From Mesorhizobium mediterraneum (GTDB taxonomy: Bacteria; Pseudomonadota; Alphaproteobacteria; Rhizobiales; Rhizobiaceae): a DNA stretch of 64,000 nucleotides. Below the pieces are notes generated by a model. That model was not told the origin of the DNA and made no database searches. It saw nothing but the letters and a program-made list of their open reading frames with translations. Each line of letters opens with the position of its first letter. Positions within the stretch are counted from its first letter, which is position 1. Position numbers and translations under genes: made by a program. Where the stretch lies: assembly GCF_002284565.1 (NCBI RefSeq), contig NZ_NPKI01000020.1, forward strand, positions 430-64,429, given 5' to 3'. Positions 26,481-33,477 of this stretch are shown here, one piece after another.

Positions 26481-26951
26481 TTGTCGGGCAACGGCGTCAG
26501 GCCAATATGTCGTGCGGAACTTTCAGGCCGCGGCTGGACGCCCTGGGCGGAAGGCACCGGCGAGAGCGCCATCGATAAGATCTGGTGGGCGGCAAGGGTC
26601 TTGCACTTTCCCAAGCTGAACGTTTCATGCTGGTTCGACGGTTCCGATCTCGTCGGCATCGAGCACTGGGGATATCGCCAGCCTCAATGGTGTATGCGGA
26701 AGAAGCCGGCCGACTGGCAGCCTTTGCTCGACGTCTACCGATTGGCGCGCGAGGAGGAAAAGCTGGCGGCGATAGAGCGATTCCAGGCCGGAGCTCAGGC
26801 TAGGGCTTTGCAGCGCCTCATTCAGGCCAGCGAGAAGCGCCGGCGTGCGCGAGGCGCTGAGAGCGGCCAGCCGGAACGCGCGCTGGTGGGGCTCCTAAGG
26901 GCTAATCCAAGGGGCACTGGCACGCGAGCTTCCACTCTTCAGCCTGTATGA
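26481..26951 (+). pseudogene. Fragment of an unrecognised protein family, copy 1
   Basis: The frame starts only at TTG 26481 and encodes KIWWAARVLHFPKLN and CWFDGSDLVGIEHWGYR, a segment closely paralogous to the one at 29169. No ribosome site or ATG is seen, and similarity between the copies begins at WAEG, well after the first possible start. The Arg/Ala-rich tail (residues of about 85-140) is absent from the second copy. It may be an N-terminally truncated gene. Function unknown. Confidence 0.4.
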
Positions 26952-27475
26952 TTCAGTAGTCTGGTGGAGGTGTCACGACGATGTTCGGTATTGGCGCGAT
27001 CGATGCCTTCTACGGTAATCGCGAACATCCCGTTTTCGACCCTTCCTATCCAGCCTTTTGCTTTTAGATACCAGAGATGAAACTCCAGATGTTCACGCGG
27101 ACAGCCCGACATGCGTTCGAGTTCTTCATCGCCAATGCCAGGATTGTTGACGTCTTGTCGGCGTTTGACATAAAGTAGCGAGAGCAGTTTGGCTTGAATG
27201 ACGCCGTCCCGTTCGATTCCTTTAGTGTTGCTGACTTCCTCAATCAACTCGCGGCGAAGTTTCAAATTGTCTTTATACTGAATGTCGTACTGCACGCGCT
27301 TGAGAGGTTCTTTGAGAGTATTATGGGCCTCCGCGATTTCACTGAAGCGTGATGCATCGCCGGTATCCTGATTGTCGGGATGGTAGCGCATAGCAAAATA
27401 ACGAAATACCCGTTCTATCGTTTCCGAGTTGGCGTTCGGGCTGATTTCCAGGAGTTCGTAGTAGTCAATGAACAA
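26939..27475 (-). CDS. J-domain protein with C-terminal winged-helix-like region
   Basis: 178 residues. The J-domain spans about 3-65 with the HPD motif at 32-34 (RYHPDNQDTGDASRFSEI), so it should stimulate an Hsp70 ATPase. Residues of about 85-165 are unlike normal DnaJ: QAKLLSLLYVKRRQDV, then EFHLWYLKAKGWIGRVENG and MFAITVEGIDRAN. This resembles a winged helix with a wing ending in IT.EGID. The Gly/Phe and zinc-finger domains are missing. It lies alone in the accessory patch. Confidence 0.75.
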   Translation of the reverse strand: MFIDYYELLEISPNANSETIERVFRYFAMRYHPDNQDTGDASRFSEIAEAHNTLKEPLKRVQYDIQYKDNLKLRRELIEEVSNTKGIERDGVIQAKLLSLLYVKRRQDVNNPGIGDEELERMSGCPREHLEFHLWYLKAKGWIGRVENGMFAITVEGIDRANTEHRRDTSTRLLNHTG

Positions 27476-27547
27476 AGTGGTGCTCCCACAACATCGCTAT
27501 TGCGCACACAGTCGAGAGAACGTCGCCGGAGCGTCTTGCAGTCATAG

Positions 27548-27637
27548 CTAGTCGATGGTGCGCTCGATGATGCCCATCAACACGTTGAAGGCCAGAAATC
27601 CGCGCTTGCGGGTCTCTACTCGCTCAATTCGTGGCAT
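27548..27637 (-). CDS. Tiny ORF, probable remnant of a small membrane protein
   Basis: 29 residues (MPRIERVETRKRGFLAFNVL...) from ATG 27637, preceded by a strong GGAGGGGG site. The start resembles short rhizobial membrane proteins that carry a longer hydrophobic stretch after KRG, so an internal deletion is likely. Low confidence that it is functional. Confidence 0.3.
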   Translation of the reverse strand: MPRIERVETRKRGFLAFNVLMGIIERTID

Positions 27638-27795
27638 TAGTCCCCCTCCCGTTTCGCAGATACTAGCGCGCAAGCTTCGCCCCTGCAAAGGGCTGCCCTC
27701 ATTCCGGTCATCCGCCGATATACGTCGGCTCGCGTCAGACGCCAGTGTTGAGGTCGATGGACAGTAGGTTCCGTTCAATGACGCCCAAGACCGTT

Positions 27796-27962
27796 TTCGG
27801 GTGCTGGGATTTATCATCATTGGCGGAATTCTGGGGATTCTCGGTTTCTGGCTAGTCCCGATCGCGTTGTCCGTTTTGGTTCCTTACAACAAAGAGGTGT
27901 TCGGCTCGTCGCTGTTCCTCCTCATAGCGTGGATATTCGTCAACGCGCATCACACTTTCCAA
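27796..27962 (+). pseudogene. Truncated second copy of the histidine-rich membrane protein gene
   Basis: The DNA is highly similar to 24328-24490 and encodes VLGFIIIGGILGILGFWLVP and SVLVPYNKEVFGSSLFLLIA, ending at NAHH. The 5' two-thirds of the gene is missing and the 3' end is replaced after the HH pair. About 20 bp just before it (AATGACGCCCA, 27778-27788) also resembles sequence before the intact gene at 23339-23349. Confidence 0.7.
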
Positions 27963-28638
27963 GGCGATCGGCCCGCGCCTGGCGGCAACGCGGATCTTAG
28001 CGTCACCGATCGAAGCGGCTTCATCACAATGAACGGCGACAATCTCAATGAGTCAGGGCATGACCGGGGCATCGGAATTCTACTGGATCGAATAGATGTG
28101 TTGGCTGGGAAATAGCACAGTTAGGCGCTCCGCGAAGGTGATGGCTGAGGCTGAGCGCGCCGAACGCGCCGCGAAGACAGCAAGATTGAGGTCGCTTCGT
28201 ATGGCGACTCAGAGTGACTTAAATGTTTCGTTTCCGGAGGAGCTCGATTGCTCGCTCCTCATCGCGGCACTGATTCAAGGCGAATCATCGGGCCAGCCTT
28301 TCAACCGTCTCAATGATGGCTTTGGCAAGGGCTTCGCCTTCGTGGACAGACTCGCGGCCTTAGGGCAGTAGCACGGCTTCCGCGCTCGGCAGCACGCCGG
28401 CCGGCAGGTCTGTTCAATAGCCATGCGAACCAGCTTGAGGAGGCCCAGGTGTTGTAGATGTTCTCCTGGGCTTCCATGCTAGTCCGCCATGTCGCGCAAG
28501 GGCGTCCTGCGCTTCTGCGGCCGGCATTTCTCCACTCGTACTTGGGGCATGCGCGCCCAAAGTCTGAAAGCCTATGAAATTCGTCGCACTTAATTAGCAA
28601 AAAAGTACGGCGATTGGTCGCAAAGTAGTTGAAAACTA
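27963..28638. other. Gene-poor stretch with remnants
   Basis: No convincing gene lies here. A frame at 28141-28371 (76 residues, MAEAERAERAAKTARLRSLR...) has a plausible GAAGGTG site, but its latter half is not recognisable. The other open frames are short and lack starts. The stretch ends at the tRNA-derived repeat at 28639. Confidence 0.4.
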
Positions 28639-28683
28639 TGGTGATCCCGACAGGAATCGAACCTGTGACCTACAGATTAGGAA
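28639..28683 (-). repeat. Attachment-site-like copy of the tRNA-Arg 3' half
   Basis: 45 bp identical to 31462-31506, the 3' half of tRNA-Arg(CCU) from the anticodon loop through CCA. Identity stops abruptly at both ends. It has the form of an att site left by an element that integrated into the tRNA 3' end; with the tRNA it bounds about 2.8 kb. Confidence 0.8.
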
Positions 28684-28833
28684 ACTTCCTGCAAGCCTTG
28701 TAGCGAAAGGCTTTGCTCGGCCCATGTCGCGTCTATGTCGCATTCACTGCAGTGACGATCGTTTCGTACAAGCACCGGCAAATATACGGATTGACGTTCC
28801 TTAGTTGCCATGGTCCCTTTTTGCGGGGGGAAC

Positions 28834-29178
28834 ATGCCGACGCTGAGAGATCCACAGTACCGAGCTTTTGTGCGACGCGAGCTTGACAGACGTCAGGGCG
28901 GGAAATGCTGCTACTGCAGGCGCGATTTCACCAAGACCGGACCAACTCGTATGACCATCGAACACAAGAAGGCCAAGATGAAAGGCGGTACGGACGATCT
29001 CAAAAACCTCGCCGCCGCCTGCTACCACTGCAATCAGCATCGCGGGCAGCAAATGAACTCCACCAAACAGCGAAACGCTACAGGGGTCGAGCGCTCGAAA
29101 GTGCCGGAGTCTGAATGCGAGACAGCGAGCTTACCGAACGCCCAGGCCGAGGCTGAACTCGATGGGCCGAGGGCGTAG
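28834..29178 (+). CDS. HNH endonuclease (small)
   Basis: 114 residues from ATG 28834 behind GGGGGG. The HNH fold is complete: KCCYCRRDF (zinc Cys pair), TRMTIEHKKAKMKGGTDDLK with the catalytic His44, Asn58 in KNLAAAC, and CYHCNQHRG. The C-terminal 40 residues are hydrophilic. It lies just inside the tRNA-bounded island and is probably island cargo. Confidence 0.85.
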   Translation: MPTLRDPQYRAFVRRELDRRQGGKCCYCRRDFTKTGPTRMTIEHKKAKMKGGTDDLKNLAAACYHCNQHRGQQMNSTKQRNATGVERSKVPESECETASLPNAQAEAELDGPRA

Positions 29179-29460
29179 GCGAATACGAGATCGAACGCGT
29201 GTGGTGGCAAGCGAAGATCCTGCATTTCGCGAAGCTGAACACCAGCGCTTGGTTCGACGGATCCGAGCTCGTCGGGATCGAGCATTGGGGTTACAGGCCG
29301 GCTCAATGGTGCATGAGGAAGGCGCCGGCGGATTGGCAGACTATGCCTCCTGGCTACAGGGCTGCCGCAGAGCGCGCCTGGCTGGAATGGCGGGCTTCGC
29401 GAAACCATTCGAACATTGATCGACCTGCGTTGGCCAGCGTGTACGGGAGCCGCAGGATAT
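29169..29460 (+). pseudogene. Fragment of an unrecognised protein family, copy 2
   Basis: This frame encodes WAEGVGEYEIERVWWQAKIL, LHFAKLNTSAWFDGSELVGI and EHWGYRPAQWCMRKAPADW, paralogous to 26535-26720. A stop codon lies just upstream at 29154; the first possible start is GTG 29199, inside the conserved block. It overlaps the end of the HNH gene by 10 bp. Both copies look 5'-truncated. Function unknown. Confidence 0.4.
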
Positions 29461-29463
29461 CGC

Positions 29464-29892
29464 CTAAGCACTGTCCTTTGCGTAGATTCCGGTGGGGCCG
29501 TAGTTCGCTTTGCAGCTTGGACAGACGTAAGGAATACCAGGGAGCGCACGGTTCTGGGCAAGCTTAAGAAAAATGCCTTTCGCCTCGCAGACGGGGCAGT
29601 ATGGCGGTCCGAATGCCTTGCCGTCTTTCGCTTCGTAGCGGAACCCATTCTGGTCCACGAGGTTCTCCGCCCTGTATTTGACCAGCGCAGTCAGCTTGGT
29701 GATCTGAGCGGCTTTCTCATGGAGCAACTGGGCCACATCGACCAGGCCCAGTTTGGCGTCGGCCAGGGCTGACGTCAGTTCGGCAATCTTCAGCTTCAGC
29801 GTCGCTTGGTCGATCTGCGTATCGATCGCGCGAATTTCCTTGACGATTGAAAGCGCAGATCCCACCGCTGCAATTGTGCCGGGTATGTCCAT
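29464..29892 (-). CDS. Hypothetical coiled-coil protein with zinc ribbon
   Basis: 142 residues from ATG 29892, preceded by GAGGGA. A helical region (about 20-80, with QATLKLKIAELTSALADAKL) is followed by a zinc ribbon made of CPVCEAKG and CPSCKANYG. Such proteins are common in prophage and island DNA; function unknown. It is part of the tRNA-bounded island. Confidence 0.7.
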   Translation of the reverse strand: MDIPGTIAAVGSALSIVKEIRAIDTQIDQATLKLKIAELTSALADAKLGLVDVAQLLHEKAAQITKLTALVKYRAENLVDQNGFRYEAKDGKAFGPPYCPVCEAKGIFLKLAQNRALPGIPYVCPSCKANYGPTGIYAKDSA

Positions 29893-29935
29893 CTTTTCCC
29901 TCGCGCAGTCAGCCAAAATCGATCGACTCGCACTG

Positions 29936-30199
29936 TCAACGTGTACGCGCCCGGTGGTCCAACTCGTTTTGCATCAAATCCACAAGACAGTCAGCGAGCG
30001 CGCGATGCTGCTTAAACTCGTAGAGCATGGTGCTGAGCGACGCATCGTCGATGTCGGCAATAGGTCTGAAAAGGCTTGGCCCGTACTGGTCAATGAATGC
30101 GCCAGGCTTTACCGATGAAACGTCGCCGCCGTCGCCATCGTCGCCGCCGACCTTCCTTCCAGGAAACTGAAAGATGTTGTTAGGGGTGTCTTCGCCCAT
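29936..30199 (-). CDS. Hypothetical small acidic protein
   Basis: 87 residues from ATG 30199, behind an excellent AGGGAGG site. An N-terminal Asp/Gly-rich stretch (GGDDGDGGDV) precedes a helical part (LSTMLYEFKQHRALADCLVD). I recognise no family. It lies 43 bp upstream of the zinc-ribbon gene in the same orientation, so the two may be co-transcribed. Confidence 0.6.
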   Translation of the reverse strand: MGEDTPNNIFQFPGRKVGGDDGDGGDVSSVKPGAFIDQYGPSLFRPIADIDDASLSTMLYEFKQHRALADCLVDLMQNELDHRARTR

Positions 30200-30528
30200 T
30201 ATGTGCCCTCCCTGTTTAGCGGCAGCAAATCACCATCGCAGCGCAGGCACAAGCGCGCGCCAGGACGCGGGGCCGCTTCGGCGGCGTAGGACTGCGGCCA
30301 GCCGAAACGCGCGCTGGCGGGGCTCTGTTCACTTGTACGCCTTAAGCGCAATCAGACCACAGAGAATGACTATCGCCGTCAGGATCAGTGCCCACGACAC
30401 GACGTTATACGATAGGCGCCTGCTTCAACAAGATTGCCGGCCGAGCAGCAGGAGCAAGTGTGGAGGGTGGCGCTGGTGCCAACGAGCCCCAGAATGGTGT
30501 CATGGCGCCCGCTACCTAGCGCGTCTAT
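30200..30528. other. Gap within the tRNA-bounded island
   Basis: No firm gene. A minus-strand GTG frame ending at 30328-30330 would encode a 24-residue single membrane segment (SWALILTAIVILCGLIALKA), too weak to call. Around 30293-30323 the DNA resembles 26867-26895, next to the copy 1 fragment, so it may be a displaced piece of that family. Confidence 0.35.
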
Positions 30529-31245
30529 TCAAGCTGTCTCCCCGGTTGACCAAATCCGCCCTCTGACATCAGCTTTAATCTGGTCGAGCAATTCCTTACC
30601 GCGGGTATCTAGCTTGGTCTGTGCGTCACGAACCCGCAACTCGTGCTCATGGTTCATTTGGCCCTCGACCAGGGCGCGACGCATCAAGCCTTCGATCTCG
30701 TCAAACTTTGCATGTAGCTCGGGCTGCAGAAATATTCCTTTCGTTGCCGAATACAGAGAAAATTCCCTTAGCGCTTCGTTCGTCTGATTGTAGCGATGCC
30801 AGAATATGTGACTCTGATAGACCTTGTTCTTCTCGTCTGCACGGCGAACCTCCTCCTTTTGCCATTTGAGGAGAGGGCTTTCAGCGAGGAATTCGTCCAG
30901 ATGCGCCGCATTCATTCTCTGGACGTCTGGGTACGATTGGATAGGTGAAACAAGCACGACCACAAAATTGTGGGCGATAACTAGCAGCTTCCAGAGCTCG
31001 GGCACCGCCTCAAATTCGCTCTGATGTAGCTTCGTGGCTCGGTCGAAGAGCCGGCTTATTCGATACCGGAGACGTTCCATCTCGCGCTCTTGCTCGCCCT
31101 TGAACGCCTCCAGTTGCCTTGAGAACCTCGCCGCCATCCATTGCTCGCCGAAAAGCTTAAAGAAGCCATAGATGCCACCTGCGACACCAGCGCCGTAGGC
31201 CGTTAGCAGTCCAATGAAACCCAGTATGGAATCTGGCAGCGTCAT
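30529..31245 (-). CDS. Hypothetical membrane-anchored coiled-coil protein
   Basis: 238 residues from ATG 31245 behind AGGAG. One N-terminal helix (ILGFIGLLTAYGAGVAGGIY) is followed by a long cytoplasmic coiled coil (SRQLEAFKGEQEREMERLRY) and a helical C-terminal domain (HAKFDEIEGLMRRALVEGQ). I do not recognise the family. It is the gene nearest the tRNA in the island, where an integrase would be expected, but it has no recombinase motifs. Confidence 0.65.
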   Translation of the reverse strand: MTLPDSILGFIGLLTAYGAGVAGGIYGFFKLFGEQWMAARFSRQLEAFKGEQEREMERLRYRISRLFDRATKLHQSEFEAVPELWKLLVIAHNFVVVLVSPIQSYPDVQRMNAAHLDEFLAESPLLKWQKEEVRRADEKNKVYQSHIFWHRYNQTNEALREFSLYSATKGIFLQPELHAKFDEIEGLMRRALVEGQMNHEHELRVRDAQTKLDTRGKELLDQIKADVRGRIWSTGETA

Positions 31246-31461
31246 CCTCTCCTCAGCCTCGGACCAGCTCGCCGGCCTGGCATGCCTGCAACTGCTTCAC
31301 TACGAAGTTTTGACTAATCGGCATTTGGACCCCCCATGTCGCATCCATGTCGCACGGACTTGCCGATAGTCGCACGAAACCCTTGGAAATCAACGGTAGC
31401 CAGTTGCAACATGATGCGACATGACCACCAGCAAAATCGATAAGTAAGCACTTGATTTTAT

Positions 31462-31538
31462 TGGTGATCCCGACAGGAATCGAACCTGTGACCTACAGAT
31501 TAGGAATCTGCCGCTCTATCCTACTGAGCTACGGGACC
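31462..31538 (-). tRNA. tRNA-Arg (anticodon CCU)
   Basis: On the minus strand the cloverleaf folds fully. The acceptor is GGTCCCG paired with CGGGATC, the D arm GCTCAGTAGGATAGAGC, the anticodon arm GCAGA-TTCCTAA-TCTGT with anticodon CCT, and the T arm contains GGTTCGATTCC. CCA is encoded at 31462-31464. Its 3' half is duplicated at 28639-28683. Confidence 0.97.
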
Positions 31539-31687
31539 ACGCGGCCCGACACATAACCGCTTCGGACCGTTTCGCCAAGAGGCGGGCTCGATGCAATCGG
31601 CCGGTTGCGAGTGGATCGCAAAGATAACCTGGGGATGGCGGAACTTCGGACCACCGCTGCGATTTAGTGTGCCGAAGGAGATACCGC

Positions 31688-31987
31688 ATGAGCGCCACAA
31701 AAGAGTTCTTTGAAACCTGGCTCCGGGAGAACGTCGGCGATCTGCCCGCCGAGAGCGAAGTGAGCGTGGCCGTCCTGGTGCAGCAATTCGAGCAAGATGC
31801 CGACGCGGCCGGCTATGGTCACGAGGTACGCGAAGACGAGATCGGCGACATCGAAGAGGCCATTGAGAAAGCTCTGCACAAGGCCCGGACAGGCGAACAG
31901 CCGCAGGCTACAGACCCAGTCGAAGAGAGTGATCTGGCGCCCGTCATGGAGGCGCTGAAGGTCGACGACTCGAAGAGCGGCCCGTAG
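31688..31987 (+). CDS. DUF768-like small protein
   Basis: 99 residues from ATG 31688, behind AAGGAG at 7-nt spacing. The start (MSATKEFFETWLRENVG) and the segment VAVLVQQFEQDADAAGYGHE followed by IGDIEEAIEKAL resemble DUF768, a family of short proteins abundant in Mesorhizobium and of unknown function. The assignment is by eye. Confidence 0.65.
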   Translation: MSATKEFFETWLRENVGDLPAESEVSVAVLVQQFEQDADAAGYGHEVREDEIGDIEEAIEKALHKARTGEQPQATDPVEESDLAPVMEALKVDDSKSGP

Positions 31988-32065
31988 TGATCCAGGCAAC
32001 ACCGGTTGGTAGCCGACGGATGGCCTGCGGTTGCGGCTCTCCCCTTCCACTCTACATGACCCGGC

Positions 32066-32212
32066 ATGATAGATGCCAAACACATCACACTCGGTGTTGT
32101 GATCGGCGTGGCAATCGGCGTCGCGTTGGACAACATCATTGCAGGCATCGGGATCGGCATTGCGCTAGGCATTGCCTTCGGTCTTGCGCGGAAGCCGTCC
32201 GGTCGGAAGTGA
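32066..32212 (+). CDS. Glycine-zipper small membrane protein
   Basis: 48 residues from ATG 32066 to TGA 32210. After a short head (MIDAKHITLG) it alternates Gly with Ile/Val/Ala (GVVIGVAIGVAL, GIGIGIALGIAFGLA), a glycine-zipper hydrophobic hairpin, and ends RKPSGRK. Such proteins insert in membranes. It lacks a strong ribosome site, so expression is uncertain. Confidence 0.45.
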   Translation: MIDAKHITLGVVIGVAIGVALDNIIAGIGIGIALGIAFGLARKPSGRK

Positions 32213-32313
32213 CGATCGGAGCATCGCCACGTCCTGAGCTCGATGGCCTTGTCGCCATCTCAAAATCGCAGCGCACCCTCAGGTCAAGCCGAGGACGGGC
32301 TCAGGCACATTCA

Positions 32314-33477
32314 TCAGGCGGCCAGCGCCGTCTCCGCCAGCTTCACCCAATAGCTCATGCCGTGCGGGATGACCTCGTCGTTGAAGTCGTAGGCCGGGTT
32401 GTGCAGACCCGCGGTGTCGCCATTGCCGATGAAGATGAAGGCGCCCGGCCGCGCCTCCAGCATATAAGAGAAATCCTCGCCGCCCATCACCGGCTGGATG
32501 GCTCGGTGCACATGGGCGTCGCCGGCGATATCAGCCGCGACGTCACTGGCAAAGACCGTCTCTTCAGCATGGTTGAAGGTGACCGGATAATTGGCTTTGT
32601 AATCGACCTCGATCGTTGCGCCGAAGGCCGCGCCTACTCCCTCGCAGATGGCGCGCACGCGCTCTTCCGCCTTCCTGGCGACCTCCTTCTTCAGCGTGCG
32701 CACGGTGCCGGCGATCTCGGCGCTCTCGGGAATGATGTTGTAGGCGTCGCCGGCGTGGAATTTCGTTACCGATACCACGACAGCTTCGACCGGATCGGTG
32801 CTGCGCGAGGCGATCGTCTGCAGAGCACCGACGAGCTGGCTGGTGATGACGATCGGGTCGATCGTGCCGTGCGGCATCGCCGCATGCCCGCCCCGGCCCT
32901 TGACGGTGATGGTGAATTCGGCGGTGGCCGCCATGATCGGGCCCGGCTTGATGGCGAACTGGCCGACCGGTAGGCCCGGCATGTTGTGCATGCCGAACAC
33001 CTTGGAGATGTCGAAGCGCTCCATCATCCCATCCTTGACCATCTCGTTGCCGCCGCCACCGCCTTCTTCGGCCGGCTGGAAGATCACCGCGACGGAGCCA
33101 GCGAAATTGCGCGTCTCGGCAAGATATTTGGCAGCACCCAACAGCATCGCGGTGTGGCCGTCATGGCCGCAGGCGTGCATCTTGCCCGGAACGGTCGAGG
33201 CATAGGGTTTTCCGGTGATCTCATTGAGCGGCAGCGCGTCCATGTCGGCGCGCAGGCCGATGGTCGTGCCTTCGCCCAGGCGGCCGCGGATAATGCCGAC
33301 GACGCCTGTCTTGCCGAGCCCGGTCACCACGTCGTCGCAACCGAAGGCCTTCAGCTTCTCGGTGACGAAAGCGGCGGTCTTGAAGACGTCGAAATTCAGC
33401 TCTGGCGTCTGGTGCAGATGGCGGCGCCAGCCGGCGACCTCGTCTTGCATTTCGGCGGCGCGGTTCAGGATCGGCAT
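32314..33477 (-). CDS. M20-family amidohydrolase (hippurate hydrolase/N-acyl amino acid hydrolase type)
   Basis: 387 residues from ATG 33477; the upstream in-frame extension is not supported. Metal-binding segments are present: HACGHDGHTAMLLGAAKYL, VIFQPAEEGGGGG, FGMHNMPGLPVG and VMGGEDFSYML. The dimerisation domain contains VKGRGGHAAMPHGTIDPI. It hydrolyses an N-acyl or amide bond of an amino acid derivative; substrate unknown. It is monocistronic. Confidence 0.92.
   Translation of the reverse strand: MPILNRAAEMQDEVAGWRRHLHQTPELNFDVFKTAAFVTEKLKAFGCDDVVTGLGKTGVVGIIRGRLGEGTTIGLRADMDALPLNEITGKPYASTVPGKMHACGHDGHTAMLLGAAKYLAETRNFAGSVAVIFQPAEEGGGGGNEMVKDGMMERFDISKVFGMHNMPGLPVGQFAIKPGPIMAATAEFTITVKGRGGHAAMPHGTIDPIVITSQLVGALQTIASRSTDPVEAVVVSVTKFHAGDAYNIIPESAEIAGTVRTLKKEVARKAEERVRAICEGVGAAFGATIEVDYKANYPVTFNHAEETVFASDVAADIAGDAHVHRAIQPVMGGEDFSYMLEARPGAFIFIGNGDTAGLHNPAYDFNDEVIPHGMSYWVKLAETALAA

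Follow-up and report, generated by a model that had tools for sequence, protein, structure and literature searches.

The 64-kb window analyzed here, a stretch of the Mesorhizobium mediterraneum genome, carries a short island at a tRNA-Arg(CCT) gene, the only tRNA gene that ARAGORN calls in the window. The island is bounded by two exact copies of a 45-bp sequence, one of them the 3′ part of the tRNA gene itself, and inside each end lies a pair of ATGTCGC heptamers. Five plausible genes are present between the repeats; no integrase, relaxase or conjugation gene was found among them. The features of the two ends are as follows.

28639–28683, plus strand: attL core, identical over 45 bp to the 3′ part of the tRNA-Arg(CCT) gene
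28724–28741, plus strand: P′ arm, a pair of ATGTCGC sites at 40 bp from the attL core on its inner side, the same distance as in the integrase-bearing element of genome G126
28744–28764, minus strand: possible last six codons and stop of a deleted integrase, reading KRSSLQ* by eye
31336–31353, plus strand: P arm, a second pair of ATGTCGC sites, conserved across an alignment of 63 sequences
31354–31415, plus strand: P-arm spacer, conserved, with a consensus that starts GTGGACCTGCCGATAGTCGCAGGAAACCCTTGGAAATCAACGG
31416–31422, minus strand: a fifth copy of the arm site in inverted orientation, reading GCGACAT on the plus strand
31538–31462, minus strand: tRNA-Arg(CCT) gene (ARAGORN), complete, its 3′ part (31462–31506) being the attR core

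The repeat starts at the CCA end of the tRNA gene and reaches the anticodon loop (96% identity over 51 bp), and the distance from the start of one copy to the start of the other, 2,823 bp, is the size of the insert. Exact matches to the 45-mer number two in the window, and two matches were seen in none of 100 shuffles. Just two copies of the pattern ATGTCGC-N4-ATGTCGC are present in the window, where 0.01 would be expected, and five in the whole 7.19-Mb genome, in which the reversed control pattern does not occur. The repeat and the arm pairs are thus not chance features. An initial annotation of this DNA had described the exact tRNA copy 2.8 kb away, the ATGTCGC motif near both ends and a further motif near 31418, and all three hold, the last being the inverted GCGACAT. 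The conserved spacer of the P arm may be where a bending or excision factor binds.

For comparison within the genus, 146 genomes were searched with window positions 30400–32400, and 20 regions of relatives were fetched. In seven of these (G033, G143, G014, G054, G051, G073, and G071) the site is empty, with the left flank (from 28577–28599, depending on the genome, to 28638) contiguous with the tRNA gene. The neighboring DNA of G033 is 92–97% identical to that of the window, and at least 33 matches span query positions 1–90, with the same flank/tRNA junction. Since the left flank joins the tRNA gene directly in these relatives, the insert is not core DNA, and the integration at the tRNA gene that had been proposed from the window alone is borne out. 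Judged by these junctions, the 2,823-bp insert is foreign DNA.

From its occupants in other genomes, the tRNA-Arg(CCT) site is a hot spot for several kinds of element, with second core copies lying from 1.8 kb to tens of kilobases or more from the tRNA gene. Sorted by their end sequences, one kind has ATGTCGC arms like those of the window (G126 and G144, and the short islands of G086, G036, and G040), and a sister kind has ATGTTGC arms and an integrase (G087 and G080). Others have integrases reading away from attL (G047, G115, and G070), and yet others are short, with ATTCTACGG repeats, conserved ends and no integrase found (G037, G109, and G123). Further elements, for example that of G088, are also present.

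The arm sites of the window recur beside integrase genes. In G126 a 412-amino-acid tyrosine recombinase (PF00589, E 9.6e-14) ends 2 bp before an arm pair that starts 40 bp inside the attL core; this core copy, with its arm pair and integrase, sits 64 kb from the tRNA gene, and both G126 copies presumably bound one element. A core copy in G144 (one mismatch) also has an adjoining integrase, and relatives of the G126 integrase at E≤1e-30 are present in 34 of the 146 genomes. We examined the 28 family integrases with open reading frames of at least 340 amino acids for GCGACAT-N4-GCGACAT with up to two mismatches within 150 bp, one of the 28 downstream stretches ending at a contig end. Sixteen have it downstream of the stop codon (15 within ∼10 bp and one at 108 bp), and none has it upstream of the start codon. 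These counts support the view that a single integrase family uses the ATGTCGC heptamers as its arm sites, the initial annotation having already noted their likeness to recombinase arm sites. The G087 integrase (L167), one of the 12 without the pair, has the ATGTTGC version.

The window island shares the layout of this family (as in G126, L126), with an arm pair by a stop codon at attL, the stop being read by eye, and a pair plus an inverted arm at attR; the integrase gene itself is absent. On the minus strand at the left end, a stop codon (28744–28746) is followed after 2 bp by the arm pair, a spacing seen in several family integrases, and the codons read by eye as KRSSLQ* compare with ERSLLS* at the ends of the G126 and G144 integrases. 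Similarity of the window to the short islands of G036 and G040 extends to this stop region and then fades. We also compared 12 other short islands, a set that leaves aside the window and the islands with ATTCTACGG repeats and is not all of one end kind. Integrase C-terminal stubs were detected by tblastn beside attL in seven of the 12: in G086, G036, and G040 at tRNA-Arg, in G039 at tRNA-Phe, in G140 and G089 at tRNA-His, and in G040 at tRNA-Met. The weakest are those of G036 and G039 (E 0.001). A further island at tRNA-Phe (L241, G051) ends AERALLA* by eye with no tblastn report, and no integrase stub was found in L233, L243, L211, or L120; the repeat of L211 is 26 bp, and that of L243 is imperfect and has no detected tRNA.

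Similar ends are widespread in the genus. Matches to the ∼95-bp right-hand P arm, many of them partial, occur in 60 of the 146 genomes, and a conserved pattern of this arm is present in 10 stretches of GTDB contigs, all from Mesorhizobium. We fetched 59 of at least 106 P-arm places, together with a heptamer pair on contig C29 of the window's own genome. All 59 re-align; the C29:32407 pair has no P-arm similarity and was set aside as unrelated. A tRNA gene lies within 400 bp in 28 of the 59 (His, Phe, Met, Glu, Lys, and Arg-TCT), and similar ends therefore serve different tRNA genes. Direct repeats at E<1e-5 were found in 15 of the fetched stretches and, by exact match, in one more (L268). Seven of these 16 repeat-bounded places contain a full-length integrase, of the family in L215, L225, L249, L251, and L265 and of other kinds in L253 and L268, and nine contain none (L211, L219, L231, L233, L241, L243, L244, L257, and L258), the repeat of L231 resting on 20 bp. 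The remaining 43 have no repeat within reach of the fetched stretch and may be larger elements or lone attR scars; among them are L221 with a 453-amino-acid integrase, L223 with a partial integrase, and L218 and L220 with stubs. P-arm modules ∼89–94% identical are found at many loci (e.g. L212, L213, L214, and L219), including genomes that have no family integrase at E≤1e-30 (e.g. G021, G017, G119, and G039), where they are possibly lone attR scars.

The window's own genome has two further partial P arms, at C33:372578–372642 (L260) and C33:458083–458124 (L268), one of them beside a tRNA-Glu gene. The second lies within a ∼17-kb tRNA-Asn island that has its own integrase and HNH-related DNA. 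The integrase at C33:472955 lies on this island, and an ATGTCGC pair in the island's interior matches the right-hand pair of the window exactly; that pair is ∼550 bp from the island core and was for that reason not counted as an arm of this integrase. An integrase able to act on the window island from elsewhere was sought among 25 PF00589 matches in the own genome, some of them fragments. None proved to be a family integrase at E≤1e-30, 12 of the 25 having been scored, so that a weaker or unscored relative is possible.

The genes between the repeats are these.

28810–29178, plus strand: HNH endonuclease open reading frame, 122 amino acids, with an ATG at 28834 as a possible start (PF01844, E 7.4e-11)
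29199–29567, plus strand: WFDGSEL-type open reading frame with a WFDGSELVGIEHWGY stretch and no family match, its 3′ part overlapping the next gene
29464–29916, minus strand: 150-amino-acid open reading frame with two C-terminal CxxC pairs, matching phrog_1244 (unknown function; E 5.3e-7)
29936–30199, minus strand: 87-amino-acid open reading frame, no family match
30529–31245, minus strand: 238-amino-acid open reading frame, its N terminus hydrophobic by eye, no confident family match

The cargo is much as first described, an HNH nuclease with proteins of no assigned role, one of them with a hydrophobic-looking N terminus, and with no integrase in sight; the HNH models are the sole matches over the Pfam cut-off. 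The HNH gene shares 74% DNA identity over 285 bp with the short island of G036, and DNA 83% identical to the HNH region over ∼307 bp lies ∼6 kb from the own-genome P arm L268. The HNH protein matches the PtuB models of PADLOC (best 2e-8), although the match is confined to the HNH part, and we claim no defense system because there is no PtuA-like partner among the other six proteins scanned. The 29199–29567 frame resembles, by eye, one at 26481 outside the island. Relatives of the 238-amino-acid protein at 32–39% identity were found in four of 393 other genomes of the bacterial family, all in other genera, one of them near a tRNA-Leu gene (L274); the protein also has a weak match to tm_HEPN (E 0.0068). 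It has no relative in GTDB contigs by a search that catches close relatives only. Searches of plasmids, in which the phage collection was not included, gave no support for a phage or plasmid gene set either. The 238-amino-acid protein has no match in plasmids; with the DNA of 28700–31460, two plasmid records, both Mesorhizobium, share ∼80–90 matching bases each.

The DNA left of attL has a history of its own. A second WFDGSE-type open reading frame and a DnaJ-domain gene (PF00226) occupy 26481–27729, and window positions 26524–27729 are 92–100% identical to the interior of the G036 short island at the same tRNA gene; from this match, these stretches beyond the present island are apparently what is left of an older, related element. 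In G040 (L261) and G044 (L240), copies of the DnaJ region (86–90%) lie within a few kilobases of P arms. Positions 27730–28598 form a mosaic stretch, in which 27795–27959 matches DNA beyond the neighboring genes, on their far side, in G033, and ∼28285–28480 is similar to fragments close to other P-arm elements (L260, L266, and L268).

These observations are best explained if the window island is the remnant of a tRNA-Arg element that has lost its integrase by deletion and kept functional-looking ends, and we regard this as probable. A tyrosine-recombinase element, with its integrase ending beside attL, would have inserted into the 3′ part of the tRNA-Arg(CCT) gene through the 45-bp core, leaving an intact tRNA gene at attR, as the empty sites in relatives support. 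A later deletion would have taken the integrase, to about its last six codons, and most of the interior; what remained would be a small cargo flanked by complete att ends that together carry five arm sites. We infer the deletion because the stop codon and its spacing to the arms have been kept and because related islands contain integrase stubs, and the same evidence favors the decayed element that was one of the two possibilities raised at the outset. The island would be unable to move by itself, having no integrase of its own, and a family integrase of the same specificity, for example that of G126, would be predicted to be able to excise it on entering the cell.

Several points weigh against this explanation. 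With ∼25 family integrases as queries, tblastn reports no stub in the window island, and the six-codon match was made by eye. By the arm-pair test 12 of the 28 family integrases have no pair; these are mostly the less similar ones, but they include the L156 integrase (68% identity), whose pair lies ∼217 bp past its stop (L215). Among the matches listed, those of other genomes begin at 31331 or later and none covers 30400–31330, so that no ancestor with an integrase and the same cargo was seen among them. Finally, integrase-bearing elements do not have cleaner P arms than the island. The window deviates from the 63-sequence P-arm alignment at one of the 52 columns conserved at ≥85%, and seven integrase-bearing elements deviate at 0, 0, 1, 4, 4, 9, and 10.

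The intact ends of the island, including a core identity of 45/45, fit either a recent loss of the integrase or use in trans. The latter, the other possibility raised at the outset, would make the island a non-autonomous satellite, regularly moved by integrases of the same family, with the arm sites kept by use. This is open to consideration because the core and all five arm sites look intact; moreover, several tRNA genes host short att-bounded islands that lack a full integrase, none of the matches listed places the 30400–31330 cargo in another genome of the genus, and the microcin H47 island provides a precedent (PMC3191183, see below). A recent deletion would also account for the intact ends, however, and the stubs in seven of the 12 short islands point to decay. 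No family helper was recognized at E≤1e-30 among the own-genome candidates that were scored. The island itself shows no sign of recent transfer and there is no positive evidence for use in trans; among the pairs of short islands listed, none of the window's kind is clearly more alike than its flanks. The tRNA-His islands of G140 and G089, which have the same cargo, are 95.6% identical in their alignment block beside blocks of 96.8–97.5%, values that fit vertical inheritance. We therefore consider the satellite explanation unlikely. Islands of 1.3 kb at tRNA-His in two genomes have both ends and an integrase stub, and their main cargo is a Sulfotransfer_2 gene (tested in L257):

L257, 15758–17101
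L258, 15666–16990

It is similarly doubtful that Mesorhizobium harbors a whole class of non-autonomous tRNA islands, 1–4 kb long, that lack a full integrase but are complete at both att ends and depend on the integrases of related elements in trans, much as miniature inverted-repeat transposable elements (MITEs) depend on transposases; if it does, the window island would count as one of its intact representatives, awaiting a helper.

The short islands with ATTCTACGG repeats at the same tRNA-Arg gene bear on a last alternative.

L121, 1436–4186
L122, 1648–4290
L123, 2019–3830

Their cargo is a ∼560-amino-acid ATPase (AAA_15/AAA_21) in G037 and G109 and differs in G123. Between G037 and G109 the interior is mostly 97–99% identical, the ends 87–89% and the right flank ∼89–94%, and the left flanks are unrelated, a pattern that looks like interior replacement and might also reflect site-specific transfer. 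An origin of the window island in old ends fixed at the tRNA gene, the interior being swapped by homologous recombination with end-sharing elements and no integrase needed, would accord with this pattern, with the other cargo between similar ends in G123 and with cargo DNA (HNH and DnaJ regions) common to elements at different tRNA genes, but it is improbable, since the G037/G109 case has an end type unlike that of the window and no relative was found that combines the window's ends with a clearly different cargo at comparable divergence.

Through its arm sites, a short and otherwise anonymous island can be assigned to a definable family of integrases, and the ∼95-bp P arm is a search handle for such elements even after integrase loss. 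Complete-looking ends and candidate integrases together are ready substrates for asking whether an integrase-less island at a tRNA gene is a dead remnant or a satellite mobilized in trans. Among the titles found in searches of the open-licence literature, none pointed to the GCGACAT arm type or to short integrase-less Mesorhizobium islands.

Integrative and conjugative elements (ICEs) and integrative and mobilizable elements (IMEs) of Mesorhizobium, as reported in PMC8627217, occupy tRNA-Arg and other tRNA genes, range from ∼5.8 to 854 kb, carry relaxase or conjugation genes, and in 73 of 79 cases are said to carry integrase genes. The window island shares their genus and class of integration site, but is 2.8 kb long with no relaxase, conjugation or integrase gene, and with no integrase of its own it is neither an ICE nor an IME. 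The attP of ICEMlSym-R7A is described as having five arm-type sites around the core, with consensus TGKTGGTATC, and the IntS integrase beside attL (PMC11963761), an arrangement like that of the window's kind; the arm types differ, however, given the GCGACAT of the window, and ICEMlSym-R7A lies at tRNA-Phe (PMC8627217) rather than tRNA-Arg.

Closer parallels are found among islands with no integrase. According to PMC3146451, 15 Dehalococcoides islands at ssrA that have no integration modules might be cis-mobilizable elements (CIMEs), and they resemble the window island in having att ends and small cargo at an RNA gene with no integrase. The window island is CIME-like in being bounded by att sites that belong to a known type of integrase, recognizable by core repeat, empty sites and arm sites, and in the want of integrase, relaxase and conjugation genes. 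The two differ in that Dehalococcoides has serine recombinases and ssrA, whereas the window has tyrosine-integrase arm sites and tRNA-Arg(CCT); the window also has no integrase-bearing tandem partner at the site, and its mobilization in trans is hypothetical. The small genomic island of E. coli that encodes microcin H47 likewise has direct-repeat flanks and no recombination genes of its own, and its excision and integration by functions from elsewhere were shown experimentally (PMC3191183), whereas the window island is known from its sequence. Integrase-less islands with att ends are already known, and the window island is a further example.

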